A stretch of 64,000 bases of DNA, from the NCBI GenBank assembly GCA_025360005.1, contig JANYDA010000049.1, positions 1-64,000 of the forward strand, given 5' to 3'. Position numbers and translations under genes: made by a program. Positions 6,407-44,772 of this stretch are shown here, piece after piece (the stretch's first letter is position 1; each line of letters begins with the position of its first letter). The stretch is from Fibrobacteria bacterium (lineage in GTDB: Bacteria > Fibrobacterota > Fibrobacteria > UBA11236). The notes under the pieces are model-generated. The model had not been told where the DNA came from. It did no database searches and saw only the letters and a list, made by a program, of their open reading frames with translations.

Positions 6407-7015
6407 ATGATCGAACAAACCGAAAATGCCGCCGCAGTCGAGCAGGATACGGCCGCGGAAGAGAGCATCCCGCGTCATAAGCCGGCCAAGACCCACCCAT
6501 ACGATTTCTCCATCCTCCGCAACCTGCGCAAGGCCCAAGGATTCACCATCGCCGATATCGCGCAGGCATCCGGCATCTCCACCGCCGTGATCTCCCGCAT
6601 CGAACGGAACCAGGCCGTACCGGAATTGGATACCCTTTCCCGCCTGGGCAAGGCTTTCGGCATCTCAGCCACCGATCTGCTCGGCCTCGCCGAGTTCCGC
6701 ACCGCCCAGATCACGGCCTCGCAGCATTATGTATCCGGGGGATTCCAGTTCCAGCACATCAACTTCATGAACATCCAGTGCTTTCTGGGCTCCGCGCTCG
6801 CCGGCGGCACGGTGAATCGTCCGGAGGTCCATCACAACGATCACGAGATCTGCTGGGTGCTGCAAGGCAGCATCGAGATGGTACTGAACGAAGAGCGCCA
6901 CGTGCTCAAGGAAGGCGATGCCATCCAATTCGACGCGGTGCTGTCGCATACCTACCGCGCCCTGTCCGACTGCCGCATCCTCACCCTGCACATCCGCAAA
7001 GGCAAGCAAATCTAA
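6407..7015 (+). CDS. XRE-family regulator with C-terminal cupin domain
   Basis: The 202-residue product has an N-terminal helix-turn-helix (about residues 43-105: LRNLRKAQGFTIADIAQASG, then STAVISRIERNQAVPELDTL). A small beta-barrel cupin (about 120-200) follows, containing HNDHEICWVLQGSIEM and LKEGDAIQFDAVLSHTYRAL, with His residues placed as metal or ligand contacts. In this family the cupin senses a small molecule and modulates DNA binding. An AGGAG ribosome-binding site precedes ATG 6407. It lies inside the uronate cluster, 63 bases after the enolase-superfamily gene, and is the obvious candidate local regulator. Confidence 0.9.
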   Translation: MIEQTENAAAVEQDTAAEESIPRHKPAKTHPYDFSILRNLRKAQGFTIADIAQASGISTAVISRIERNQAVPELDTLSRLGKAFGISATDLLGLAEFRTAQITASQHYVSGGFQFQHINFMNIQCFLGSALAGGTVNRPEVHHNDHEICWVLQGSIEMVLNEERHVLKEGDAIQFDAVLSHTYRALSDCRILTLHIRKGKQI

Positions 7016-7056
7016 ATCAGGGCCGTCGCCCGCCGGCGGCGAACGAAAGGTTCCCC

Positions 7057-7269
7057 ATGCAAACCCAGGACTTCACCCCCGTTTCGGGAGCCACCCGCAC
7101 CATCCTCCTCGGCCGCAACCGCCTCAATCCGCTCGCGGAAAACCGCGCGCCGGTGGTTAAAAGTTTCGACAGCCCCGCTTTGCGCCCTTTCCATACCGTC
7201 CGCAAGGCGAACGCAAGCGCCCCCATCATCGCCCTATCGAACGCTGCCGTCCGCATCGACCACCTGTAA
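7057..7269 (+). CDS. possible small protein, 70 residues
   Basis: An ATG-initiated frame of 70 codons fills the gap between the regulator and the GH88 gene, with a weak GAAAGG upstream. The product is basic and has no signal peptide, membrane segment or motif I recognise. Its position in an operon and its stop just 17 bases before the next start favour a real gene. The short length and high GC content, which keeps many frames open, argue against. Confidence 0.3.
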   Translation: MQTQDFTPVSGATRTILLGRNRLNPLAENRAPVVKSFDSPALRPFHTVRKANASAPIIALSNAAVRIDHL

Positions 7270-7286
7270 CCCCGGAACCGTTGAGC

Positions 7287-8675
7287 ATGATCGAGATCAA
7301 GAACTCCCTGAAGCCCCAGGATCTGGCGCCTAAACTGGATCGTCTGTGGACGGCCTCGGCGGAAAAGATCAAATCCATCGAAAAGAACTGGGACCCGGCC
7401 AACGGTTCTCCGGTCTTCACCGTAAAGGGGAAGTACACGTCCAAAGGCTGGACGGAATGGACGCAAGGCTTCGTCTACGGGTCCGCGCTGCTGCAATTCG
7501 ACGCCACCGGCGATGCGGCCTTCCTGGATATCGGCCGCAACCATACCTTCAAGGACATGGCCGGGCATATCACCCATACGGGCGTGCACGATCACGGCTT
7601 CAACAACGTCAGCACCTACGGCAACCTGTGGCGCCTCATCGGCGAGGGCCGCATCCAGGCGGACGGACGCGAAAAGGATTTCTACGAGCTGGCCCTGAAA
7701 TGCTCCGGCGCCGTGCAGGCCATGCGCTGGACCCCGATCAACAACGGCAAAGGCTATATCCATTCCTTCAACGGGCCCCATTCGCTCTTCGCGGACACCA
7801 TAAGGTCCTTGCGCGCATTGGCATTGTCCCACAAGCTGGGCCACATCTTGCTGGGTGAAAAGGACGCGAAGATCAATCTGCTGCAACGCCTGGTCGACCA
7901 TGCCGCCGTGACCGCCGAGTTCACCCTGTTCTACGGCGAGGGACGCGACAGCTACGATACCCCCGCCCTGCGCGGCCGCGCGGCGCACGAGATCATCTTC
8001 AACACCAACGACGGAAGCTATCGCTGCCCCAATTCCCAGCAGGGCTATGCGCCTTTCACCACCTGGACCCGCGGCCTGGCCTGGGTCATGCTGGGCTATG
8101 CCGAAGAGCTGGAGTTCCTGGCCGCCTTGCCGGATAAGGAATTGGATGCGGTGGGCGGGCGCAAGGCGGTGGAAGCCATGATGCTCAAGGCCGCCAAGGC
8201 TTCTTGCGATTTCTACATCGCGCAGACCCCCAAGGACGGCATCCCGTATTGGGATACGGGCGCGCCCAACCTGCACAAGCTGGGGAATTACCTGGATAAG
8301 CCTGCCGATCCCTTCAACGAGCACGAGCCCGTGGACAGCTCCGCCGCAGCCATCGCGTCGCAGGGCCTTTTGCGCCTGGGCCGTCTGCTGCGCGCCAAAG
8401 GGGAGACCGCCGAAGGCGATCGCTATTGGCAAGCCGGACTCACCGTGGTCGATCGCCTTTTTGAAGAACCCTACCTGAGCACCGATCCGGCGCATCAGGG
8501 CCTGCTCTTGCACAACGTGTATCATCGGCCCAACGGTTGGGATTATATCCCACCCGGAGCAAAAATCCCGCTGGGCGAATCCAGCCAATGGGGCGATTAC
8601 CATGCGCGGGAAGTGGCGTTGTATCTGCAGCGGATCATCAAGAATGGGAAGTACTATACGTTCTTCGGGGCCTAG
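7287..8675 (+). CDS. GH88-family unsaturated glucuronyl/galacturonyl hydrolase
   Basis: The 462-residue product has the alpha/alpha-barrel signatures of GH88. HDHGF (Asp102) and FADTIRS (Asp170) match the two functional aspartates of characterised unsaturated glucuronyl hydrolases. TTWTRGLAW (about 257), IPYWD (about 315), DSSAAAIAS (about 350), LLHNVYHRPNGWD and SSQWGDYHAREVAL follow. The family hydrates the 4,5-double bond left by polysaccharide lyases, releasing 5-dehydro-4-deoxy-uronate. No signal peptide is seen, so it should act in the cytoplasm on imported oligosaccharides. A TTG at 7281 is in frame but ATG 7287 is preferred. The product would feed the dehydrogenase, kinase and aldolase downstream. 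Confidence 0.9.
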   Translation: MIEIKNSLKPQDLAPKLDRLWTASAEKIKSIEKNWDPANGSPVFTVKGKYTSKGWTEWTQGFVYGSALLQFDATGDAAFLDIGRNHTFKDMAGHITHTGVHDHGFNNVSTYGNLWRLIGEGRIQADGREKDFYELALKCSGAVQAMRWTPINNGKGYIHSFNGPHSLFADTIRSLRALALSHKLGHILLGEKDAKINLLQRLVDHAAVTAEFTLFYGEGRDSYDTPALRGRAAHEIIFNTNDGSYRCPNSQQGYAPFTTWTRGLAWVMLGYAEELEFLAALPDKELDAVGGRKAVEAMMLKAAKASCDFYIAQTPKDGIPYWDTGAPNLHKLGNYLDKPADPFNEHEPVDSSAAAIASQGLLRLGRLLRAKGETAEGDRYWQAGLTVVDRLFEEPYLSTDPAHQGLLLHNVYHRPNGWDYIPPGAKIPLGESSQWGDYHAREVALYLQRIIKNGKYYTFFGA

Positions 8676-8689
8676 CTTGGTCAGCGGGA

Positions 8690-8740
8690 TTTTTGCAAAT
8701 TGAAAATTGAAAATCGCGATTTTCAAATTGCAAAATTCTT
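8690..8740. repeat. AT-rich intergenic repeat, copy 1
   Basis: This AT-rich block in a GC-rich region contains GCAAATTGAAAATTGAAAAT and then GCGATTTTCAAATTGC, so it can also fold on itself. The first 27 bases match copy 2 at 9584. It separates the GH88 and SDR genes. Confidence 0.6.
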
Positions 8741-8796
8741 GCTTGCCCCGTCGACTCAATCCCTTAACCTTTATCGTCAACGGAGAATCCTGTAAT

Positions 8797-9567
8797 ATGT
8801 CCAATCGAGTCGCAGCCATTACGGGTGGAGGCCGAGGCATCGGCCTTGGCATTTCCACCTGCCTGGCCAAGGAAGGTTTCGACCTGGCCATCTGCGGGCA
8901 GAAGGAAGAGAAGGACGTGGATTCCCTGGAAGGTCTGCGCAACCTGGGCGCCAAAATCCTTTACATAAAAGCCAACGTGGCGGAAGCGCGCGATCGCGAG
9001 AACTTCCTGGCCGTGGTCCAAGAGAAGTTCGGGCGCCTGGACGTGCTGGTGAACAATGCCGGCATCGCCCCCAAGGTGCGGGCGGATATCCTGGAAGCGG
9101 GCGAGGAGAGCTTCGACGATCTCATCCGCGTCAACCTGCGCGGTCCGTATTTCCTGACCCAGAAGGCGGCCCAGTGGATGATCGCGCAGCGCCGCGAGCA
9201 TCCCGATCGTATGCATTCGATCGTCAATATCACCTCCATCTCCGCCACCGTGGCCTCTGTAAACCGCGGCGACTATTGCCTGGCCAAAGCCGCGCTCGGC
9301 ATGTCCAACCAGCTCTGGTCCGCGCGCCTGGCCGAGTTCGGCATCCCGGTCTATGAAGTGCGCCCCGGGATCATCAAGACGGACATGACCTCCGGCGTCA
9401 CCGGCAAGTACGATGCGCTCATCGCCAACGGGCTTATTCCGCAGAACCGATGGGGCTTTCCGGAAGACGTGGGCAAGGCCGTGGCCATGCTCGCCCGCGG
9501 CGATCTCCCCTATTCCACCGGCCAAGTGCTTATGGTGGATGGCGGGATGACGTTGGCGAGGTTGTAG
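8797..9567 (+). CDS. SDR-family oxidoreductase (FabG/KduD-like)
   Basis: The 256-residue product is a classical short-chain dehydrogenase. It has the nucleotide-binding TGGGRGIG (9-16), NNAG (86-89), and the catalytic Ser147, Tyr160 and Lys164 (YCLAK) with the usual 13- and 4-residue spacing. The start ATG 8797 follows GGAGA; an upstream in-frame ATG at 8707 would translate the AT-rich repeat and is rejected. Between GH88 and KDG kinase, a role as 2-dehydro-3-deoxygluconate (KduD-like) or related uronate dehydrogenase is the natural guess. Sequence alone cannot separate it from other SDRs often labelled 3-ketoacyl-ACP reductase. Confidence 0.88.
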   Translation: MSNRVAAITGGGRGIGLGISTCLAKEGFDLAICGQKEEKDVDSLEGLRNLGAKILYIKANVAEARDRENFLAVVQEKFGRLDVLVNNAGIAPKVRADILEAGEESFDDLIRVNLRGPYFLTQKAAQWMIAQRREHPDRMHSIVNITSISATVASVNRGDYCLAKAALGMSNQLWSARLAEFGIPVYEVRPGIIKTDMTSGVTGKYDALIANGLIPQNRWGFPEDVGKAVAMLARGDLPYSTGQVLMVDGGMTLARL

Positions 9568-9583
9568 GAAAAGACAAGAGAAA

Positions 9584-9625
9584 GATTTTGCAAATTGAAA
9601 ATTGAAAATCGCATTATGCAAATTG
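9584..9625. repeat. AT-rich intergenic repeat, copy 2
   Basis: This is a second copy of the element at 8690, in the same orientation and directly after the SDR gene. It has TTTTGCAAATTGAAAATTG and then AAAATCGC. With copy 3 it forms an imperfect inverted repeat around about 60-75 bases. Confidence 0.6.
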
Positions 9626-9684
9626 GAATACGGAGGTATTCCTTCGCGACTCCGGTAGATCCCGGACGCAATTCGCTTTGTTGG

Positions 9685-9725
9685 TTTTCAATCTTCAATT
9701 TTCAATCTTCAATTTGCGAAAATCC
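9685..9725. repeat. AT-rich intergenic repeat, copy 3 (inverted)
   Basis: CAATCTTCAATTTTCAATC and then TTCAATTTGCG is the diverged reverse complement of copies 1 and 2. It ends about 15 bases before the aldolase start. Paired with copy 2 it could form a long stem in the operon transcript. Confidence 0.55.
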
Positions 9726-9740
9726 TTCGGAGACCCACCT

Positions 9741-10370
9741 ATGAACCCACTCATCGACCGCTTGCAATCCATCCGCCTCATGCCCGTGGTCATCATCGAC
9801 CGGGCTGAAGACGCGTGGCCCTTGTGCCAAGCGCTGAAAGCGGGCGGCCTGCCCTGCGCGGAAGTCACCTTCCGGACTGCGGCGGCCGAAGCGGCCATCA
9901 AGGCCATCGCCAAGGATAAGGACATTTGCCTGGGGGCGGGAACCATACTGCAACCCGATCAGGTCGATCGCGCGATAGCGGCGGGCGCGACCTACATCGT
10001 TTCCCCCGGCTTCAACACCAAGGTGGTCCGGCGTTGCCGCGAGTTGAACGTGCCGGTGTTCCCCGGCGTGGCCACGCCCACGGAAATCCAGATGGCGCTC
10101 GACGAAGGCGTGGAAGTGGTGAAATTTTTTCCGGCGGAATCCATCGGCGGCATCAAGGCCCTAAAAGCCATCGCCGCGCCCTTTTCTATGGTCCGCTTCA
10201 TCCCGACCGGCGGCATCGACTTGGCCAAACTCCCCGATTACCTGGCCTTCAAGGCCGTGGTAGCCGTGGGCGGCAGCTTCATGGTGGCCCCGGAGCTGCT
10301 CAAGACCGGCAATTTCGCGGAAGTAACGCGCCTATCCGCGCAAGCGGTGGCCCTGGCCAAACCGCAGTAA
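9741..10370 (+). CDS. eda: 2-dehydro-3-deoxy-phosphogluconate (KDPG) aldolase
   Basis: The 209-residue class I aldolase has EVTFRT (41-46), the GAGT loop (65-68), SPGF (88-91), PGVATPTE (108-115) and the Schiff-base Lys128 in VVKFFPAE. TGGI near residue 155 binds phosphate. It cleaves KDPG to pyruvate and glyceraldehyde-3-phosphate in the cytoplasm, the last step of uronate breakdown. CGGAG lies upstream of ATG 9741. It is followed after 54 bases by the kinase that makes its substrate. Confidence 0.95.
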   Translation: MNPLIDRLQSIRLMPVVIIDRAEDAWPLCQALKAGGLPCAEVTFRTAAAEAAIKAIAKDKDICLGAGTILQPDQVDRAIAAGATYIVSPGFNTKVVRRCRELNVPVFPGVATPTEIQMALDEGVEVVKFFPAESIGGIKALKAIAAPFSMVRFIPTGGIDLAKLPDYLAFKAVVAVGGSFMVAPELLKTGNFAEVTRLSAQAVALAKPQ

Positions 10371-10424
10371 CATATAAGCTACCCGGCCGCGCCCGGCGCC
10401 CCGGACCTGAATTTTGGAGGAACC

Positions 10425-11525
10425 ATGGCCCTGTTGAACGTAAAGCCCAAGGACAAATGCCGATTCGATCAGATCTCCCTCGGCGAGATCATGCTACGCC
10501 TGGATCCGGGCGATGTGCGCATCAAGACCGCGCGCAGCTTCACGGCCTGGGAAGGCGGAGGCGAATACAACGTAGCCCGCGGCTTACGCCGTTGCTTCGG
10601 CCAACGCACGGCGGTGGTCACCGCTTTCGCGGACAACGAGGTGGGCCGCCTGGTCGAGGATTTCATCCTGCAGGGCGGAGTGGACGCATCCTTCATCAAA
10701 TGGGTTCCCTATGACGGCCTGGGCCGCAGCACCCGCAACGGCCTCAACTTCACCGAACGCGGCTTCGGCGTGCGCGGGGCGGTAGGGGTTTCCGATCGCG
10801 GCCACACCGCCGCCAGCCAGCTCAAGAAGGGCGACATCGACTGGGAAGAAATCTTCGGAAAGCAAGGCGCGCGCTGGTTCCATACCGGCGGCATCTACGC
10901 AGGCCTCTCCGAAACCACCCCCGACGTGATCGAAGAGGCCATGACGGCCGCCAAAAAACACGGCACGCTCATTTCTTTCGATCTCAATTACCGGCCCAGC
11001 CTTTGGAAGAATTTCGGCGGCCAGAAGCGCGCCCAGGAAGTGAACCGGAAACTCGCCCGTTACGTGGACGTGATGATCGGAAACGAAGAAGACTTCACCG
11101 CTTCTTTGGGTTTCAAGGTGGAAGGCACCGACGAGCATCTCTCCAACGTGGAAACCGAAAACTTCAAGAAAATGATCGGCGAAGTCACCAAGGAATTCCC
11201 CAACTTCAAAGTCATCGCCACCACCCTGCGCACGGTCAAGTCCGCCTCCGTCAACGATTGGGGCGCCGTGGCCTGGGGAGAAGGCAAGTTCTTCGAGTCG
11301 GCTATGCGCCGCGGCCTGGAGATCTACGACCGCGTGGGCGGCGGCGACAGCTTCGCATCGGGATTGATCTACGGCCTGATGGAAAAAGGCGATCTGGCGC
11401 AAGCGGTTGAATACGGGGCCGCGCACGGGGCCTTGGCCATGACCACGCCGGGTGACACCTCCATGGCGAGTTTGGCGGAAGTGGAAAGCCTGGTCAAAGG
11501 CGGCGGCGCGCGGGTGCAGCGCTGA
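10425..11525 (+). CDS. kdgK: 2-dehydro-3-deoxygluconate kinase (PfkB family)
   Basis: The 366-residue sugar kinase has the N-terminal PfkB segment GGGEYNVARGLRRCFG (44-59), FDLNYRPSLW (185-194), the NEEDF box (220-224) and the C-terminal signature VGGGDSFASGLIYGL with catalytic Asp308. GGAGG lies seven bases before ATG 10425. Among PfkB kinases, the FDLNYRPSLW motif and the adjacent eda gene point to KDG as substrate. It is the last gene of the cluster. No clear terminator follows it. Confidence 0.92.
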   Translation: MALLNVKPKDKCRFDQISLGEIMLRLDPGDVRIKTARSFTAWEGGGEYNVARGLRRCFGQRTAVVTAFADNEVGRLVEDFILQGGVDASFIKWVPYDGLGRSTRNGLNFTERGFGVRGAVGVSDRGHTAASQLKKGDIDWEEIFGKQGARWFHTGGIYAGLSETTPDVIEEAMTAAKKHGTLISFDLNYRPSLWKNFGGQKRAQEVNRKLARYVDVMIGNEEDFTASLGFKVEGTDEHLSNVETENFKKMIGEVTKEFPNFKVIATTLRTVKSASVNDWGAVAWGEGKFFESAMRRGLEIYDRVGGGDSFASGLIYGLMEKGDLAQAVEYGAAHGALAMTTPGDTSMASLAEVESLVKGGGARVQR

Positions 11526-12276: not shown

Positions 12277-13302
12277 TTAGGGCAGGGCAGCGGACAGATG
12301 GCGTGAATAGGGATGGCCCCCTATCGACCCGGAAAGGAAATAGCCGCCCCAACCTGGAAGCGGCCCCAGAGAGCGGGTTCCCGGTCCGGAACCCTGCATC
12401 GTCTGCAAGCGCCCTCCGCGCGCATCATCCAACTCCAACCGCCATTCTCCCGGTTGGGTGAACCGCAATTCCACCCGGCCAGACCCCGTTTGTCTTAAGC
12501 TGAGCAAGGGAGCGCCAGCCATCTCGACCGGAGCATGGGCGATTCGAGATGTCTGGTCGGGCCAGATGAAATCCTTATTGACCCAGGGATCCTCCGTCAA
12601 GGGCCGGATCTTGAGATTGCGGTACCATACCGGGCTGGCATGGTCCTGTAGGAAAAGCTTGCCGGCATGGATATCCCCGTAAAGGGGAAAGGTCGAGTAC
12701 TTACTCTTATCGTATTTGGTTTTCCAATCGTCGCTGCCGATCACGTACTCCAGCAAGCGCGTGCCGTTGCCGAAATGGGCCACCCGGTTTTCATACATGA
12801 TGACATGGAAGGTATTGTATTGGTCCGCGGACTTGATCCACGGCTTTGCCGGCGCGTACATGGCATAACAGGCGCCCGGGCTGGTCACCTCCATCCCGTT
12901 CTTATAATCCAGCCGCAACTTGCCGCATACTTGCGACTCCGGGCCGGTGCGGATATTCTCTGAAGCCTCCGTCTCCAGATACCTCAGGAAGATCCCGCTG
13001 TTGCCCGAGTCCGCGATTTTCCAATCGACGGAAATCTCGAAGTTACGGTACACGAAAGCCTCCGGTGCCAAGAGAGCACCCGCCGAGAGGCCGCGCAGAT
13101 AGATGGAACTGTCCTTGACGATCCACCCGTTCCCGCTGATATCCGGCCTGCGGAAAGAGTGCCAGCCGGCCAGGGATTTGCCGTCAAACATCAATAACCA
13201 GCCCCGGGAAGCTTCCTGATCCGTAAGCGTATTAATGGACTGTGAGCGCGCCGAGTAGGGCAATACCGATAGCAATAGCGCCACGACATACAGACGTTTC
13301 AT
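12277..13302 (-). CDS. secreted DUF1080 (3-keto-disaccharide hydrolase family) protein, paralogue 1
   Basis: The 341-residue product has a signal peptide ending near ARS-QS (22). The DUF1080 lectin-like sandwich (about 30-235) follows, with LMFDGKSLAGWHSF, YRNFEISVDWKI and SGIFLRYLE. Characterised DUF1080 members cleave 3-keto-glucosides. A C-terminal beta-rich module (about 270-341), containing ELRFTQPGEWRLELDDARGG, resembles the tail module of its neighbours. AAGG precedes ATG 13302. It is divergent from paralogue 2 across an AT-rich 329-bp promoter region. Confidence 0.87.
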   Translation of the reverse strand: MKRLYVVALLLSVLPYSARSQSINTLTDQEASRGWLLMFDGKSLAGWHSFRRPDISGNGWIVKDSSIYLRGLSAGALLAPEAFVYRNFEISVDWKIADSGNSGIFLRYLETEASENIRTGPESQVCGKLRLDYKNGMEVTSPGACYAMYAPAKPWIKSADQYNTFHVIMYENRVAHFGNGTRLLEYVIGSDDWKTKYDKSKYSTFPLYGDIHAGKLFLQDHASPVWYRNLKIRPLTEDPWVNKDFIWPDQTSRIAHAPVEMAGAPLLSLRQTGSGRVELRFTQPGEWRLELDDARGGRLQTMQGSGPGTRSLGPLPGWGGYFLSGSIGGHPYSRHLSAALP

Positions 13303-13631
13303 CGTGCCTTAATATATCACCGGGAGCCGGGGTTGGGATTTGAATCCCAGTAATTCCATGGGAAACGGTTGCAGACAAACCATTTTGCTTCGTAAAAAAT
13401 CCTACTTTACTCTACTCTTTAGTATCCAAAGCATACTTTAAATACGCAATTAGTATTATTTTTAGCCATTTTTAGCCCAAGCCAGAAATTTTTTTGCTTC
13501 AAAAAAACCATGCTTTTTTTCCAATCTGACGCTAACTTGGACTCCAGGGAAGGGCCGCATCTACGCAAGCCCGGATCAGATGGGTCTGAGTTGGGCCTAA
13601 TGCGTTGAACCGGATGATCAGGAGGCTGAGA
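13303..13631. promoter_or_regulatory. AT-rich divergent promoter region between two DUF1080 genes
   Basis: The 329 bases are clearly AT-richer than flanking DNA, with A and T runs at 13385-13520. A short repeat (TTTTAGCC and TTTTTAGCCC around 13457-13477) is visible. Core promoters for both directions are expected here, but I cannot assign boxes reliably. Confidence 0.45.
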
Positions 13632-14792
13632 ATGAAAGCGAAAATTTACACAGGAATCTTGTTGGGGGCGATGGTGCTTGGCACAGAGGCTAAAGCCCAA
13701 AGCACGGGAACCAACAATATCCTTTCGGCCGCCGAAAAGGAAGACGGTTATAAATTGCTGTGGGACGGCACGAGCTTCACCGGTTGGAAGAGCTATCACC
13801 TCTCCAACGTGAGCGGCACTTGGTCTATCGTGCATCAGAGCGGACTGGAAACCACCTCGCGCAAGAGCGTCGATCCCGACTCGAATATCCTGGAAGTGAA
13901 CGCCAGCGGCCAAAGCATGTTCACGGTGGATACCTCCTTCCAGGACTTCGACTACAAGGTCGAATGGAAGGCCGTGGTCGGCTTGAAAGGGAACAGCGGG
14001 CTTATCATCCATTACCGCGAAGCCGCCGGCGAATACAACGGCGCATCGGGGCCGGAAGCCCAGGTTTCAAATACCCTTTGGACGCAGGAGTGGACTGCGG
14101 AATTGACCGCCGCCGGATGCAACTACGAGATGACCCCGCTCCTGAAGTCGAGGAAAAATCCTGACAACTCCCCCAACTGGGTCAAGCCGGACGGGCAGTG
14201 GAATGAGTTCCGGATCATCTCTTACGGCAAGCGGGTGGCCCATTATGGCAACGGCAAGCGCTTGCTGGAATACCAGATGTTCTCCCCCGCATGGACCGCC
14301 GCCTATAAGGCAAGCAAGTACAACCAGTACCCCAACTACAACAACCTGCATCCCGGGAGCATCTATCTCCAGAACCACGGAGAAAAATGGATGAAGTTCC
14401 GCAACCTCCGCATCAAGAAGTTGACACAAAATCCCTGGGGTTCCGATTCCCCGTACCTGAATAAATCCTCGGCAACGCCGACAGATTCCACCCTGATCGA
14501 TGATTTGGCACTGTCGGCCGATCTCTTCCCGAACACCACCCGCGTCTCCCCTTATGCCATTGTCCCCAAGGAAGCGCGCATCGTTTCCCAGCCCCAGGGC
14601 CTTTCCGTATTGTTCGCCCGCTCCGGAGATTATTCGGTGCGACTGCAGGATCTCAACGGAGTCACCACCTTGGTGAACAATGTTAAGGGCAAAGACCAGA
14701 TCTTCCTGCCAGGCCGCTTCACCCGGCCCCGTATTCTCAGCGTCTACCAGGCTGGCAAGCAAATCCAATCTTCCATCGTAGGTGGTAAATGA
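13632..14792 (+). CDS. secreted DUF1080 protein, paralogue 2
   Basis: The 386-residue product starts at ATG 13632 with GGAGG upstream and a signal peptide cut near AKA-QS. The DUF1080 domain spans about 35-280: LLWDGTSFTGWKSY, DFDYKVEWKAVVGLKGNSGL, YGNGKRLLEYQMFSPAW. A C-terminal module (about 325-386) with YSVRLQDLNG follows. Its stop overlaps the next start by four bases (ATGA), so it is co-translated with the beta-barrel protein. It is much closer to paralogue 3 than to paralogue 1, sharing NNSPNWVKP-like and PDGQWNEFRIIS blocks. Confidence 0.88.
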   Translation: MKAKIYTGILLGAMVLGTEAKAQSTGTNNILSAAEKEDGYKLLWDGTSFTGWKSYHLSNVSGTWSIVHQSGLETTSRKSVDPDSNILEVNASGQSMFTVDTSFQDFDYKVEWKAVVGLKGNSGLIIHYREAAGEYNGASGPEAQVSNTLWTQEWTAELTAAGCNYEMTPLLKSRKNPDNSPNWVKPDGQWNEFRIISYGKRVAHYGNGKRLLEYQMFSPAWTAAYKASKYNQYPNYNNLHPGSIYLQNHGEKWMKFRNLRIKKLTQNPWGSDSPYLNKSSATPTDSTLIDDLALSADLFPNTTRVSPYAIVPKEARIVSQPQGLSVLFARSGDYSVRLQDLNGVTTLVNNVKGKDQIFLPGRFTRPRILSVYQAGKQIQSSIVGGK

Positions 14793-16267
14793 ACCTGTTC
14801 CGTACAACATCCATGAATTCCCTGTTGCCTGCAGCTATTCTCGCCGCCTGCCTGGCGCCATCCGTATCCGCGGAAGATGTCAAGGACAGCATTCTGTTCT
14901 TGAGGCCCACGTTCAAGGTTTCCCAGGAAGTCACCCACATCATCAAAGGCGGAAACCATATCAAGTCCGACGGCCTTGATGATGCCTGGATCGAACCCAC
15001 TAGCGCCTCCGCGGATTTCCAGGTCAAGAAGAACGATCGCTTGGGCCTGGAAATACTGCTGGCTTTCACCTATTTCAGCGCCCCTTACCATTACGACGTA
15101 CCGCAGAACTACGTCCGTAACATATCCGTTACGGCCCCGAAGCTCGATATCAGCTATCTCTTCGGGGATGCCGATCACCCTTTCCTTAGGGCGGATGCGG
15201 GCGTTTTCAATTATAAATACAATGAAAACGCGCGAAACCTGGGCGAATACATGTTCCGCACCTGGGCCTACCCCGGCACCATCCAGACCGGCGGCACCTT
15301 CGGATACCTGGGCGCGAACTCGGCAACCCTCACGGGTCTCAAGCTCAGCCAAAACCTGGGCATGTTCTCTCATGATTTCATCCTCTCGGTGGAAACGGAA
15401 CTCACTCCCGTTTACGATCTAAACCTGACCTATATGGCCCGCCTCAACTACCATAACGTATTGAAGGTAGGCGGCGGTGTGCAGTTGGCGCGTGCGGTGA
15501 ACGCGGACAAATACGCCCAGATGAAGATCCCCTACTTTGAATACAAGGGAGTGTGGTATGCTGGCGGCCCAGCCGGATCGGCCTACTACACCAACTTGTC
15601 CAAGGGAATCCTCGAGGAGTTGGCCAAGCCCGGCGTAGGGGCGGCCGATTCGGCCCGCTTACTATCCGAGCTGGCCCAGGACTCGCTCGCCATTTCCGTA
15701 TTGGATAGCGTCAGCACATCTTTAATCAATCCGAGCATGAAAAAACTGACCGCCCGGGCCATCAAGCCGGCTTTGTACTTCTCCTTCGATCCAAAACCCA
15801 TGTTCGATGCCAGCCTCTTGGGTCCTAAGGATTTAATCCTCTATGGCGAGGCCGCCATCTTGGGAACGCAGAACAATCCGGTTTTTTACAAGGACATCTC
15901 CCGCCGCATCCCCATGATGCTGGGCTTCAACGTGCCTACCTTCAAACTGTTGGACGTCTTATCGATGGAAGTGGAGTACTACCGCTCCCAGTGGCTGCCC
16001 ACCTACCCTTCCTCAGTGGAATTGAACGCATCCCCGGCTCCCTATATGGCCACTTCGTCTTACTATCCCACGCAATGGGACAAGGACAACTTTAAGTGGT
16101 CCATTTACGCGGAGCGCAGCATTCTCAATGGCATTACACTTTCCGGCCAGATCGCGAGCGATCACTCCCGCTCTTGGGATTGGAACTCTTACGGCAAAAC
16201 CTCCTGGGAAATCTACACCACCCCCAGCCAATACTATTGGGGCGTGAAACTTTCCGCGGGCATTTGA
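14789..16267 (+). CDS. predicted outer-membrane beta-barrel protein
   Basis: The 492-residue product has a signal peptide cut near VSA-ED (about 29). Long runs of alternating hydrophobic and polar residues follow, rich in Tyr, Trp and Phe, such as LGLEILLAFTYFSAPYHYDV and YNLTYMARLNYHNVLKVGG-type strands. A helical insertion lies near residues 270-320. The last segment (SQYYWGVKLSAGI) looks like a closing strand. No named family is recognised. Translational overlap with DUF1080 paralogue 2 and co-direction with paralogue 3 suggest one transcript and a shared export, surface-anchoring or uptake role. The role is inference. Confidence 0.72.
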   Translation: MNLFRTTSMNSLLPAAILAACLAPSVSAEDVKDSILFLRPTFKVSQEVTHIIKGGNHIKSDGLDDAWIEPTSASADFQVKKNDRLGLEILLAFTYFSAPYHYDVPQNYVRNISVTAPKLDISYLFGDADHPFLRADAGVFNYKYNENARNLGEYMFRTWAYPGTIQTGGTFGYLGANSATLTGLKLSQNLGMFSHDFILSVETELTPVYDLNLTYMARLNYHNVLKVGGGVQLARAVNADKYAQMKIPYFEYKGVWYAGGPAGSAYYTNLSKGILEELAKPGVGAADSARLLSELAQDSLAISVLDSVSTSLINPSMKKLTARAIKPALYFSFDPKPMFDASLLGPKDLILYGEAAILGTQNNPVFYKDISRRIPMMLGFNVPTFKLLDVLSMEVEYYRSQWLPTYPSSVELNASPAPYMATSSYYPTQWDKDNFKWSIYAERSILNGITLSGQIASDHSRSWDWNSYGKTSWEIYTTPSQYYWGVKLSAGI

Positions 16268-16276
16268 ACCTGACCC

Positions 16277-16297
16277 GAAGGCGGACGGCCTTCTTTT
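16277..16297 (+). terminator. intrinsic terminator after the beta-barrel gene
   Basis: A perfect 6-bp stem (GAAGGC/GCCTTC), 5-nt loop and TTTT lie ten bases after the stop. A second hairpin (GGGCGAG/CTCGCCC) follows at about 16301-16331. Confidence 0.65.
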
Positions 16298-16492
16298 AGG
16301 GGGCGAGAGGGCGACTGTGGCCCCCCTCGCCCGTGTTCTATCCGGGCCGGTTCGCCGGGGCCCGCCTTTGATCCGGGTCTCGTTTACTTTCCGCCGCCTG
16401 GGCCGCAATGCTTTCCCCATCCGATCGCATTCCATCGACCGTATTTCCGAAATCCGTTCTCTCGTCCGCCCTCACAAACATGGAGGCTCACC

Positions 16493-17674
16493 GTGAAATT
16501 GACCCTATTTTATGGTCTTATTTTTTCGTCGCTGGCAGCATCCACGAACACGCAAGCCCAAGTCCGCACGCATAACAACGCGCTTTCCCCGGCCGAAAGC
16601 AAAGACGGCTACCAGTTGCTTTGGAATGGCAGAGATTTCAGCGGATGGAAAACCTACCGCGACACGCTTTCCATCCTTGACCCAAAGCGTTTCAACATGA
16701 ACTTGAGAATCACGCACGCGGACGGATCCGAGGCGAGCGACACGAACGGTTCGGATCCGGATTTCAACATGATTGAGATCTCCGGCGGGGGGCCCAGTCT
16801 TTTCACCCGGGATACATCTTTCCGCGACTTCGATATCAAAATGGAATGGCAGTCCGTGGCGGGCAAAAGAGTCACCAGCGGTCTGAACATCCATTATCTG
16901 GAATCGATGGGGGAATTCTATGGCGCGTCTTCGCCACAAGCCATGTTCGTGAATAAAGCGGCTGTCAATTATTGGAGCGGCGAATTGATGACCGCAGGAT
17001 GCAACTTCGAGATGGTGCCCCTGTTGAAGTCAGTGAAAAATCCGGACGGCTCCCCGAATTGGGTAAAGCCAGACGGCCAATGGAACGAATTCCGGATCAT
17101 TTCCCATGGCAGCCACACTGCCCACTTCGGGAATGGCATGCGGCTGCTGGAGTACCAGATGTTTTCAGCGAAATGGAACGTCGCTTATTCCTTAAGCAAG
17201 TTCATTCCATATCCGGGCTATAAGGATTTGCATCCTGGCAGCTTCTTATTGGTTAGCCACGGCGACGCCGGAATTAAGTTCCGGAACATCCGCATCAAAA
17301 GGTTGACCCGCGATCCCTGGGCCGCGGATTCCCCATACCTCAATAACGTCTCCCTCGCCAAAGGCGACACTGCCTTAATCGACGCCTTACCGACCTCGGT
17401 CGATCTCTTTCCTGTCACCACTTCGCTCCCCCCACCCGGCTCCGAGCCGGTCGCGAAGATCCTCATCGAAGCCGGAGGCGCCAGCGTGTCCGTGCCGCAT
17501 CCCGAGGAGTACTCCTTTCGGTTAAATGATGTCCAGGGAGTCGAATTGCCCTGCGAGCAAATCGGCGCATCAGGTAGGCTACGGGCTTTTCTCCTCGCGT
17601 CGCCCAGAGTTGCCATCCTCAGCCTGTGGCGCAAAGGCGCGAAGATCCAGGAACGAATTCTAACGACGCCTTAA
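16493..17674 (+). CDS. secreted DUF1080 protein, paralogue 3
   Basis: The 393-residue product starts at GTG 16493 behind a strong TGGAGG. The signal peptide ends near TQA-QV. The DUF1080 domain (about 35-285) has LLWNGRDFSGWKTY, DFDIKMEWQSVAGKRVTSGL, FGNGMRLLEYQMFSAKW and FRNIRIKRLTRDPW. The same Pro/Ser linker and C-terminal sandwich as paralogue 2 follow (VSVPHPEEYSFRLNDVQG). It has its own upstream terminator, so it probably has a separate promoter. The near-copy relation to paralogue 2 points to local duplication around the barrel gene. Confidence 0.87.
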   Translation: MKLTLFYGLIFSSLAASTNTQAQVRTHNNALSPAESKDGYQLLWNGRDFSGWKTYRDTLSILDPKRFNMNLRITHADGSEASDTNGSDPDFNMIEISGGGPSLFTRDTSFRDFDIKMEWQSVAGKRVTSGLNIHYLESMGEFYGASSPQAMFVNKAAVNYWSGELMTAGCNFEMVPLLKSVKNPDGSPNWVKPDGQWNEFRIISHGSHTAHFGNGMRLLEYQMFSAKWNVAYSLSKFIPYPGYKDLHPGSFLLVSHGDAGIKFRNIRIKRLTRDPWAADSPYLNNVSLAKGDTALIDALPTSVDLFPVTTSLPPPGSEPVAKILIEAGGASVSVPHPEEYSFRLNDVQGVELPCEQIGASGRLRAFLLASPRVAILSLWRKGAKIQERILTTP

Positions 17675-17865: not shown

Positions 17866-17893
17866 CGCCCCGGTGCAATGAGCGTTGCCGGGC
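17866..17893 (+). promoter_or_regulatory. hairpin in the metK leader
   Basis: CCCG and GCAA pair with TTGC and CGGG across a 6-nt loop, with a 2-nt bulge, about 25-50 bases upstream of the metK start. A second GGCC hairpin precedes it. It could be a control element, but I cannot match it to a known SAM riboswitch class. Confidence 0.3.
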
Positions 17894-17917
17894 CAGAAAC
17901 ACCATCAGGAGTTCTCA

Positions 17918-19111
17918 ATGTCCAGACACCTTTTCACCTCCGAATCAGTCTCCATGGGCCATCCCGACAAAATGGCCGATCAAATTTCCGACTCCATCCT
18001 CGACGCCATGCTGGAGCAGGATCCCCGCAGCCGCGTAGCTTGCGAAACCCTCATCACCACCGGCATGGTGGTAGTGGCCGGCGAGATCACCACCAAGGCC
18101 AACATCGACTTCCAGAAGGTGGTGCGCGAAGCCATCGCCCGCACGGGTTATACCGATGCCGCTTTCGGCTTCGACTCCAAGACCTGCGGCGTGACCATTG
18201 CGCTGGACAAGCAGAGCCCGGACATTTCCCAGGGCGTATCCGAAGGCGAGGGCCTGTTCAAGGAACAGGGCGCCGGCGACCAGGGCATGATGTTCGGCTA
18301 CGCTTGCGATGAGACCGAAGAACTGATGCCGATGCCCATCCATTATTCGCATCGCCTGATGGAAAAACTGGCCGAGCTGCGCCAGAACGGTACTCTGCCC
18401 TGGCTGCGCCCGGACTCCAAGTCCCAGGTCACGGTGGAATACGTGGACGGCAAGCCCAAGCATATCGATACCATCGTGCTCTCGACCCAGCATGACGAGA
18501 AGGTCTCGCATGAGACCATCCAGAAGGAAATCATCGAGAAGTGCATCAAGGTGGTGATCCCGGCCCATCTGCTCAATGCGCAGACCCGTTACTTCATCAA
18601 TCCCACCGGCCGCTTCGTCATTGGCGGACCCATGGGCGATTGCGGCTTGACCGGTCGCAAGATCATCGTCGATACCTATGGCGGCATGGGCCGGCATGGC
18701 GGCGGCGCGTTCTCCGGCAAGGATCCCTCCAAGGTGGACCGTTCCGCGGCGTATGCGGCGCGTTACGTTGCGAAAAACATCGTGGCCGCCGGCCTCGCCA
18801 CCCGTTGCGAAGTCCAGGTGGCCTACGCCATCGGCTATCCCAAGCCCGTTTCCGTTTACGTGGAGACTTTCGGCACCGGCAAGTTGGCTCCCGAGGCCCT
18901 GGAGGCGTTGGTGAACGAGCACTTCGACCTGACCCCGGGCGGCATCATCCGCACCTTGGATCTGTTGAAGCCCCGCTACCGCGCCACCTCCGTGCACGGC
19001 CACTTCGGCCGCAAGGGCGATTCCTTCACCTGGGAAAAGACCGACAAGGCCGATGCCCTGCGCGAAGCCGCTAAGTCGCTCACCGCCAAACCTCAGTTGG
19101 CCAACGCCTGA
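17918..19111 (+). CDS. metK: S-adenosylmethionine synthetase
   Basis: The 397-residue cytoplasmic enzyme makes SAM from methionine and ATP. GHPDK (14-18), [12 protein letters not shown] (about 120) and the [14 protein letters not shown] and [19 protein letters not shown] blocks (about 240-285) are the family signatures. AGGAG lies upstream of ATG 17918; an earlier in-frame ATG (17885) has no such site. A strong terminator follows. It sits next to ahcY, which removes the product of SAM-dependent methylation. Confidence 0.97.
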
Positions 19112-19121
19112 TCCAATCCTA

Positions 19122-19162
19122 AGGCCCGCCGTCGCCCAGGCACGGCGGGCCTTTTCTTTTTC
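19122..19162 (+). terminator. intrinsic terminator after metK
   Basis: A 10-bp perfect stem (GGCCCGCCGT/ACGGCGGGCC), 9-nt loop and TTTTCTTTTT tail lie about 10 bases past the metK stop. Confidence 0.92.
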
Positions 19163-19210
19163 ATGTTTTCACGCAATCGATTTGCAAACGAACCATAAGG
19201 AACAGACCAC

Positions 19211-20686
<1,476 letters not shown>

Positions 20687-43376: not shown

Positions 43377-44552
43377 TTAGGGGAAGACCCGTCTTCCGTC
43401 GGAAAGGTAAGCAGCGTCCTGACCCAGCAGCGCCCGATGGCGTACCAGAGAGGAGCCCGGTTTCCCGCCTTCGGTTCCTTGCCGTTGGGAATGCGGCCGA
43501 ACCGCTTTTCCTATAACGATGGCGGCTCCGGGGAAGAAGGGATAGGCGGGATCGCCGTCCAGGATCCACATGTTCCGGAAGTAGACCGGATCGCCGTTCT
43601 TTTGCAAGGCGATGTTGACGGCGCTTACCATGGAGCCCAGTTCCCGGCCCGGGTGGATGAGGATGCCGTTATGCCATACCGTCATATATCCCTTGCCCAC
43701 GGCCTCCGAGTCCGCGGATACCGGCGTGATCAAATGGATGTCGTAGGTCTGCCAGGCCAAGGGGGGAAAGCTGGCGACCACGTCCGGCGGGTACTGGACT
43801 TCAATGCCGCCGCATTCATCTTCGCGCGGCTCATTGCCGAAAGAATCCAGGATCTGGATCTCGGCGAACAGGAATTTTGCGATCAGGAATTTCAGGCCGC
43901 TGTTTGCGCGGGTCTGCCCCATGGCGAACGGGATGAAGGGCAAGCGGAACTCCAGGTGCAGGGAAAAGTTCGAGAATTTCCTCCGTGTCATGGCGACGGG
44001 GGCCAAGGGCGCGAAGAAGCGGCGAGCGTCCACTTCAGCGTTGTCCCATTCGGCCAGCGAGCTTCCGTCGAAAAGCACGGTGGCATGGGGGGGCGGCGGC
44101 AAGCCCAGGGTAGGACTTGAGCGGTTCTGCCGGGTCAAGACGTACGGCCATCCCCTCCCGTTCCCGGCCGTGAGCGTATCCCCCACGAGCCTGGCCTGGT
44201 ACGCGTCCCCGGTAACCTGCATGTTACCTGGGCGACCCGAATCGGACTTTGCCGCGTACGCGAACCTTTCTTTCCCGTTCCATCCGTCCCCGGGCAACCC
44301 TCCCGGAAAGAAAATCACGCGGAAATTCCCGTCGCCTTGCGCCACCACTTGCGCGCCCAATCGCCCAGCGACGACCGTATCCGGCCCCGTGAACTTGCCC
44401 GCATATTCCCCCTGGACGGCGAAATCGGGGCCTGCGTCCTGCGGTTCCAGGGCCACCAATTGGGCCGCGGCCGGCGATGCCGAAAACGCTCCCAGCCACA
44501 AAGCGGCGAGGGCGGCAAAGAAGCGGGAGGACTTCCGGCGGGGATCGGTCAT
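43377..44552 (-). CDS. secreted DUF1080-like protein, paralogue 4
   Basis: The 391-residue product begins at ATG 44552 with a signal peptide cut near AAA-QL (about 31). Residues about 35-150 form a beta-rich leader domain (GPDFAVQGEYAGKFTG). The DUF1080 sandwich (about 155-350) follows with ATVLFDGSSLAEWDN, NFSLHLEFRLPFIP and ANSGLKFL, then YDIHLITP and GSMVSAVNIALQ. The C-terminal about 40 residues are polar and show no clear copy of the module seen on paralogues 1-3. It is apart from the other three and precedes feoA on the same strand. Confidence 0.8.
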   Translation of the reverse strand: MTDPRRKSSRFFAALAALWLGAFSASPAAAQLVALEPQDAGPDFAVQGEYAGKFTGPDTVVAGRLGAQVVAQGDGNFRVIFFPGGLPGDGWNGKERFAYAAKSDSGRPGNMQVTGDAYQARLVGDTLTAGNGRGWPYVLTRQNRSSPTLGLPPPPHATVLFDGSSLAEWDNAEVDARRFFAPLAPVAMTRRKFSNFSLHLEFRLPFIPFAMGQTRANSGLKFLIAKFLFAEIQILDSFGNEPREDECGGIEVQYPPDVVASFPPLAWQTYDIHLITPVSADSEAVGKGYMTVWHNGILIHPGRELGSMVSAVNIALQKNGDPVYFRNMWILDGDPAYPFFPGAAIVIGKAVRPHSQRQGTEGGKPGSSLVRHRALLGQDAAYLSDGRRVFP

Positions 44553-44772
44553 GCCGGGAATATAGTCCCGCAAGGTTGTTTTTCGCGGTCGGCGGAAATG
44601 GAAATCGTTCCCTGCCGGGGATACTATCGGGCGCGGGACGAAACCGTTCCGGTTCCGTCGCTTTGATTCCGCGGATTTGGCCGATTCCAAAAAAAAGCAT
44701 TGGAGCGCGCGCTTGAGAAACCTTATTCAGCGGCGGAAGTGCCAGCTTCATCGAGGCAAGGCATAGTCTCCA

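Follow-up and report, generated by a model that had tools for sequence, protein, structure and literature searches.

The 3-keto-disaccharide hydrolases of family PF06439 (DUF1080), among them BT2157, the 3-keto-glycoside eliminase/hydratase of 8rr2/9fbe, and Caulobacter CCNA_01705, have a role in the use of 3'-ketolactose, and the 3-keto-glycoside pathway is proposed to be periplasmic (PMC9007349). Here we describe a locus in the genome of a Fibrobacteria bacterium, where three secreted DUF1080 genes (D1, D2 and D3) lie with a gene for a predicted outer-membrane β-barrel (B). The window analysed is a stretch of 64,000 nucleotides (assembly GCA_025360005.1, contig JANYDA010000049.1, positions 1 to 64,000). 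D1–D3 resemble the known hydrolases as family members by profile, in the fold of D2, and in the motifs of D1 and D2. They differ in carrying a tail of the type IX secretion system (T9SS) type, which suggests a surface location, in place of a plain periplasmic form, and in having a barrel partner with no GFO/IDH or GMC gene nearby.

Three further systems, and one enzyme family, invite comparison. The SusC/SusD pairs of Bacteroidota follow a similar logic, in which the genes for a glycan protein of the cell surface and for a barrel of the outer membrane recur as a pair, but family searches do not class the barrel described here as a TonB receptor and its partner is DUF1080 or ThuA, not SusD. PorP/SprF with its type-B T9SS cargo also places a barrel beside a T9SS cargo gene; here, however, there is no model match, the tails are of type A, and stand-alone cargo proteins carry the same tail. 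The 16-stranded general and sugar porins (OmpM1, OmpF/OmpK35) share the predicted strand number and a weak Foldseek similarity with the barrel, which differs in its lack of sequence similarity, its long helical insertion, and its large clade-specific expansion in enzyme-linked operons. The trehalose-utilisation family ThuA (PF06283) replaces DUF1080 at several barrel loci of this genome, although the ThuA proteins here are secreted, bear a T9SS-type tail and are mostly accompanied by two barrels. DUF1080 enzymes and porins are already known. What appears to be new is that the two are locked together and multiply duplicated as a pair, that ThuA can stand in for DUF1080, and that three barrel lineages share an array; no paper on a barrel–DUF1080 pairing was found in the open-access literature searched.

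A first-pass annotation, made from the sequence alone, had described a trio of secreted DUF1080 genes organised around a barrel of unknown family. The genes are real: all four are open frames, and D1, D2 and D3 match PF06439 with 102, 107 and 75 bits against a curated cut-off of 26.8 (E-values 4e-29, 1.2e-30 and 9.1e-21). The trio as an organising unit did not hold, as the count of three is incidental in a genome with 23 PF06439 genes. Instead, the unit is a barrel with one DUF1080 or ThuA. The genome (∼5.0 Mb) contains ∼22 barrel copies at 12 loci, plus one fragment, and 11 of these loci have a DUF1080 or ThuA neighbour on the same strand: DUF1080 at six (the window, C32, C29, C49, C14:209k and C40) and ThuA at five (C39, C52, C55, C28 and C25), although the genome has only 10 ThuA genes. 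At the twelfth, C63, the barrel lies with FG-GAP and GSDH genes. In a simple model, with 4,400 genes assumed, at least 11 paired loci out of 12 would arise by chance with a probability of ∼5e-23. The pairing recurs across the order, with a same-strand DUF1080 or ThuA neighbour in 64 of 73 arrays; these were picked by the barrel alone, in a sample that is large, not exhaustive, and in which orthologous loci are not independent.

The two partners are also inherited together. On a FastTree phylogeny of 165 barrels (102 with DUF1080 and 34 with ThuA), the partner label changes once, compared with a mean of 30 changes when labels are shuffled. Pairwise distances among DUF1080 proteins correlate with those among their adjacent barrels (Mantel r = 0.90 across 50 pairs, null maximum 0.09), a value that in part reflects shared species and duplication history, as expected of duplication module by module. 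Many arrays have the order DUF1080-B1-B2-B3, with each position forming its own clade. In the three-barrel arrays, position changes five times on the barrel tree against 37 expected; B1, B2 and B3 are therefore separate, old lineages in a fixed order, in arrays of two types and with one exception (L098). At two loci (L170 and L138) the adjacent partner is a GH27 α-galactosidase. Other proteins accompany some arrays: TPR-repeat proteins lie between or beside ThuA–barrel arrays (L073:3208-4989 and L074:5306-7387), and an M64 (IgA peptidase family) protein is encoded upstream of a barrel-barrel-ThuA array (L069:10902-12212).

The AlphaFold model of D2 has a predicted local distance difference test score (pLDDT) of 73, and its best matches in the Protein Data Bank (PDB) are 3u1x and the BT2157-type 3-keto-glycoside eliminase/hydratases 8rr2, 8tda and 9fbe. 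For 3u1x, 8rr2 and 8tda the match has a probability of 1.00 and a template-modelling score (by target) of 0.84–0.66. The model also resembles galectin-like and CBM66 folds. A comparison of conserved residues divided the three paralogues. At the canonical GPExQ, EHWxNG and QDHG positions, E, Q, H, N and QxH are all present in D1 and D2 (the GPExQ and QDHG motifs of D1 being intact), while D3, which is 48% identical to D2, has lost three of them (E to Q, Q to M, and Q to V). Judging from these substitutions, D3 is possibly a binding protein instead of an enzyme.

The barrel has a signal peptide, ∼16 predicted strands and a helical insertion near residues 240–316. It did belong, as first described, to an unnamed family: its sequence has no match in Pfam, NCBIfam or the PDB, and no NCBIfam model, that of PorP/SprF included, was matched at E-values up to 0.1. 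We rejected a TonB receptor or a known porin family as its identity for want of any sequence match, and the 10 matches to the TonB plug domain (PF07715) in the genome do not coincide with barrels. A low-confidence model gave 16 strands and a weak Foldseek likeness to the 16-stranded porins OmpM1 and OmpK35 (E ∼1e-7).

Among 61 genomes, comprising this one and its relatives, the barrel is confined to its own order, while a profile search of 168 Fibrobacterota genomes found it in 37, several distant families included. In that search a family (f3, with genus g4) which we take to be Fibrobacteraceae, with Fibrobacter, had marginal matches only. A scan for related loci with closer alignment gave five, all from Fibrobacteres/Fibrobacteria or unclassified bacterial metagenome-assembled genomes. 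The first-pass annotation held that its reading would fail if the barrel matched a known porin family and had unrelated neighbours in other genomes. This combination did not occur within the order, although barrels farther away in the family are accompanied by other partners. In family f7, the barrel is often found among propeller and cytochrome-c assembly genes, and the barrel family is therefore wider than its association with DUF1080 and ThuA. One example (L132:1181-11386), with similar loci in f7, places it amid an HZS_alpha-like gene, a propeller/MauG-like gene, ResB and a cytochrome-c assembly gene, and gene sizes suggest that the same partner set recurs in this family. Elsewhere, a frameshift or sequencing error divides the G003 orthologue of the barrel between two frames (L091:8703-10111).

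The genome encodes SprA (SprA_N match, 83 bits), and of the models for the type-A C-terminal sorting domain of the T9SS (TIGR04183/PF18962), TIGR04183 is matched above its curated cut-off by a ThuA of this genome (L073), by the DUF1080 of L068, which is the second DUF1080 of the D-B-D locus C29, and by the stand-alone DUF1080 of L078. A further protein, in L102, is on the cut-off, and others are on it or just below. The tails of D1–D3 do not match TIGR04183 or any other NCBIfam tail model; they match a tail profile that we built from barrel-linked and stand-alone DUF1080 proteins, and which picks up many secreted proteins of these loci. From this match we infer that D1–D3 reside at the cell surface. 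Stand-alone DUF1080s such as that of L078 have the same tail with no barrel nearby, suggesting that export does not depend on the barrel, contrary to a role like that of PorP/SprF.

Taken at modest confidence, the reading we judge probable is that the locus is one among many copies of an enzyme–porin module, in which T9SS-exported 3-keto-glycoside eliminases or hydrolases act with dedicated porins that import their products. The DUF1080 enzymes would be exported through the T9SS to the cell surface, where they (or ThuA at sister loci) would cleave 3-keto-glycosides by elimination and hydration. The 3-keto group may be supplied by a GSDH-like propeller dehydrogenase at the surface, whose gene lies within or close to several sister operons, or by a different organism. 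The 16-stranded, porin-like barrel encoded alongside, dedicated to its partner, would admit the released sugars to the periplasm. Many copies have a single enzyme and two or three distinct barrels in a set order. The data establish the gene pairing, its co-inheritance, the lock on partner type, the DUF1080 fold and, for several of the partner proteins, the T9SS tail; catalysis, substrate, the origin of the 3-keto group, contact between the proteins and the direction of transport are inferred. The proposal of an uncharacterised surface system for 3-keto-glycosides is the best-supported of those considered, with the unit being one barrel and one DUF1080 or ThuA.

The source of the 3-keto group bears on this module. 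As first described, the usual partners of DUF1080 are absent nearby: the genome has nine GFO/IDH genes, none on the contig of the window, and no GMC C-domain at all, so we rejected both as partners. A GSDH-like propeller gene directly precedes the barrel in L166 (order D-GSDH-B) and L151 (GSDH-B), and stands two genes before it in L066. PF07995, the GSDH-like family, has 34 matches in this genome. As an observation in its own right, the GSDH/DUF7133 propeller dehydrogenase-like proteins have undergone a large expansion here (34 places), and several have sorting tails.

Several results weigh against the enzyme–porin module. The GPExQ glutamate is kept in 24 of 52 barrel-adjacent DUF1080s and is D in 18 and Q in 10; with about half of them altered, D3 included, the ligand may be a different one, as the first-pass annotation also proposed. 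The enrichment of GSDH genes near DUF1080 or ThuA is modest (8 of 33 within 5 kb, where ∼2 are expected), and GSDH enzymes are known for oxidation at C1, not C3. None of the known types of 3-dehydrogenase lies near the window, and the window itself yielded no GSDH-like gene. A part for ThuA in 3-keto-sugar cleavage was not confirmed in the literature searched. With a mean pLDDT of 49, the barrel model is too weak for more than a tentative likeness to porins. Most barrels of the distant families f7, f9 and f12 keep different company, genes for cytochrome-c biogenesis and propellers among it.

The main rival is capture in the manner of SusCD, in which lectin-like DUF1080 proteins would bind glycans at the surface and pass intact oligosaccharides to the barrel, with catalysis lost or incidental. 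We consider this unlikely, with some points in its favour: the altered glutamates just described, the galectin-like and CBM66 resemblance of the D2 model, and the locking of one secreted protein to one barrel lineage would all be expected of it. It fits less well with D1 and D2, which keep every canonical position lost in D3, with the replacement of DUF1080 at other loci by ThuA and GH27, families of enzymes and not lectins, and with a barrel that family searches do not place among SusC-like TonB receptors. Both may hold, with D2 an enzyme and degenerate copies such as D3 serving as SusD-like binders.

Alternatively, the barrel could be no transporter at all but a dedicated secretion or anchoring protein of the PorP/SprF type, keeping the T9SS protein encoded next to it attached to the surface. 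Tailed partners, a genome with SprA, and barrels and cargo encoded as tight pairs are consistent with this; yet the window barrel matches no NCBIfam model, the tails are type A, stand-alone DUF1080s share the tail without a barrel, and it is difficult to see why one cargo should need two or three distinct barrels, so that we regard this role as improbable. That the numerous DUF1080 and barrel genes are chance neighbours with no functional link, kept together by synteny with metK-ahcY as the window locus is in seven other species of two genera, is already contradicted by the recurrence of the pair within a single genome, at about a dozen sites unrelated to each other, and by a partner type that tracks barrel phylogeny, and is barely credible.

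An extension of the enzyme–porin module, rather doubtful in our view, is that the porins of the D-B1-B2-B3 arrays are obligate hetero-oligomers (heterotrimers, for instance), with three ancient and distinct barrel lineages around one surface enzyme. With the GSDH-like propeller dehydrogenases these would make up an entire 3-keto-glycoside pathway outside the cell, on the Fibrobacterota surface, and be the equivalent in this phylum of SusCD loci.

The features of the locus are listed in Table 1. The true start of D2 is probably the ATG at 13614 or that at 13632; its domain spans residues 48–271 and its tail residues ∼325–395. The barrel has a possible alternative start at an in-frame ATG (14813). 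The ATGA overlap between D2 and the barrel noted at first is present in the sequence but is not itself kept in orthologues: the gap between the two genes varies there from −14 to +120 nt, with gene order and strand maintained, and the overlap is therefore incidental. D1 is a lineage separate from D2 and is divergently transcribed. It is retained in two further species of its own genus, and its orthologues (56–57% identity) occupy the same place in G002 and G005.

Table 1. Positions of the features of the DUF1080–barrel locus within the window.
Feature	Position	Strand	Description
D1	12277-13302	(-)	Secreted DUF1080 (PF06439, 3-keto-disaccharide hydrolase family), open frame, C-terminal sorting-like tail
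D2	13605-14792	(+)	Secreted DUF1080, barrel partner; open frame, PF06439 match
Shine-Dalgarno-like AGGTGG	14780-14785	(+)	Shortly upstream of the D2/barrel ATGA
ATGA stop/start overlap	14789-14792	(+)	Joins D2 and barrel; present in sequence
B (barrel)	14789-16267	(+)	492-aa predicted outer-membrane β-barrel, unnamed family
D3	16493-17674	(+)	Secreted DUF1080, D2 paralogue; open frame, PF06439 match
metK and ahcY	17885-20686	(+)	Conserved neighbours of D2-B; not thought part of the system

D2 and the barrel adjoin metK-ahcY in all seven orthologous loci, from two genera (L090–L096). In G003, metK is found on the opposite side and is transcribed divergently, and we therefore regard this as a shared position more than a shared operon. 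A metabolic link to metK-ahcY was rejected, as the arrangement looks like a shared ancestral position only, and so was a riboswitch or other RNA element tying the operon to these genes, with no Rfam match in the window or in eight related loci. Separately, metK starts less than 50 nt downstream of a barrel in L106 and L107.

Elsewhere in the window, a fourth DUF1080 gene (43377-44690, (-) strand) has its domain in the C-terminal part of the protein (residues 203–376) and no barrel near it. The region 6407-11525 encodes an HTH-cupin regulator, a weakly GH88-like protein, an SDR, a KDPG aldolase and a PfkB sugar kinase, and is probably a cluster for uronate (pectin) catabolism; its KDPG aldolase and PfkB kinase are syntenic in related genomes.

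How sugars pass the outer membrane in the plant-fibre-degrading Fibrobacterota is not settled, and a proteomic study of Fibrobacter succinogenes offers a TonB route as a hypothesis only (PMC6851124). In this organism, an uncultured relative of the fibre-degrading Fibrobacter, only 10 TonB plug matches are present, and a specific candidate for uptake is offered by a barrel family that reaches ∼22 copies per genome and is locked to enzymes of the 3-keto-glycoside type. The arrays of three lineages also prompt the question whether the porins are hetero-oligomers. If the enzyme–porin module is correct, the 3-keto-glycoside pathway, proposed to be periplasmic, would be moved to the cell surface, and an unnamed barrel family would gain a testable function.

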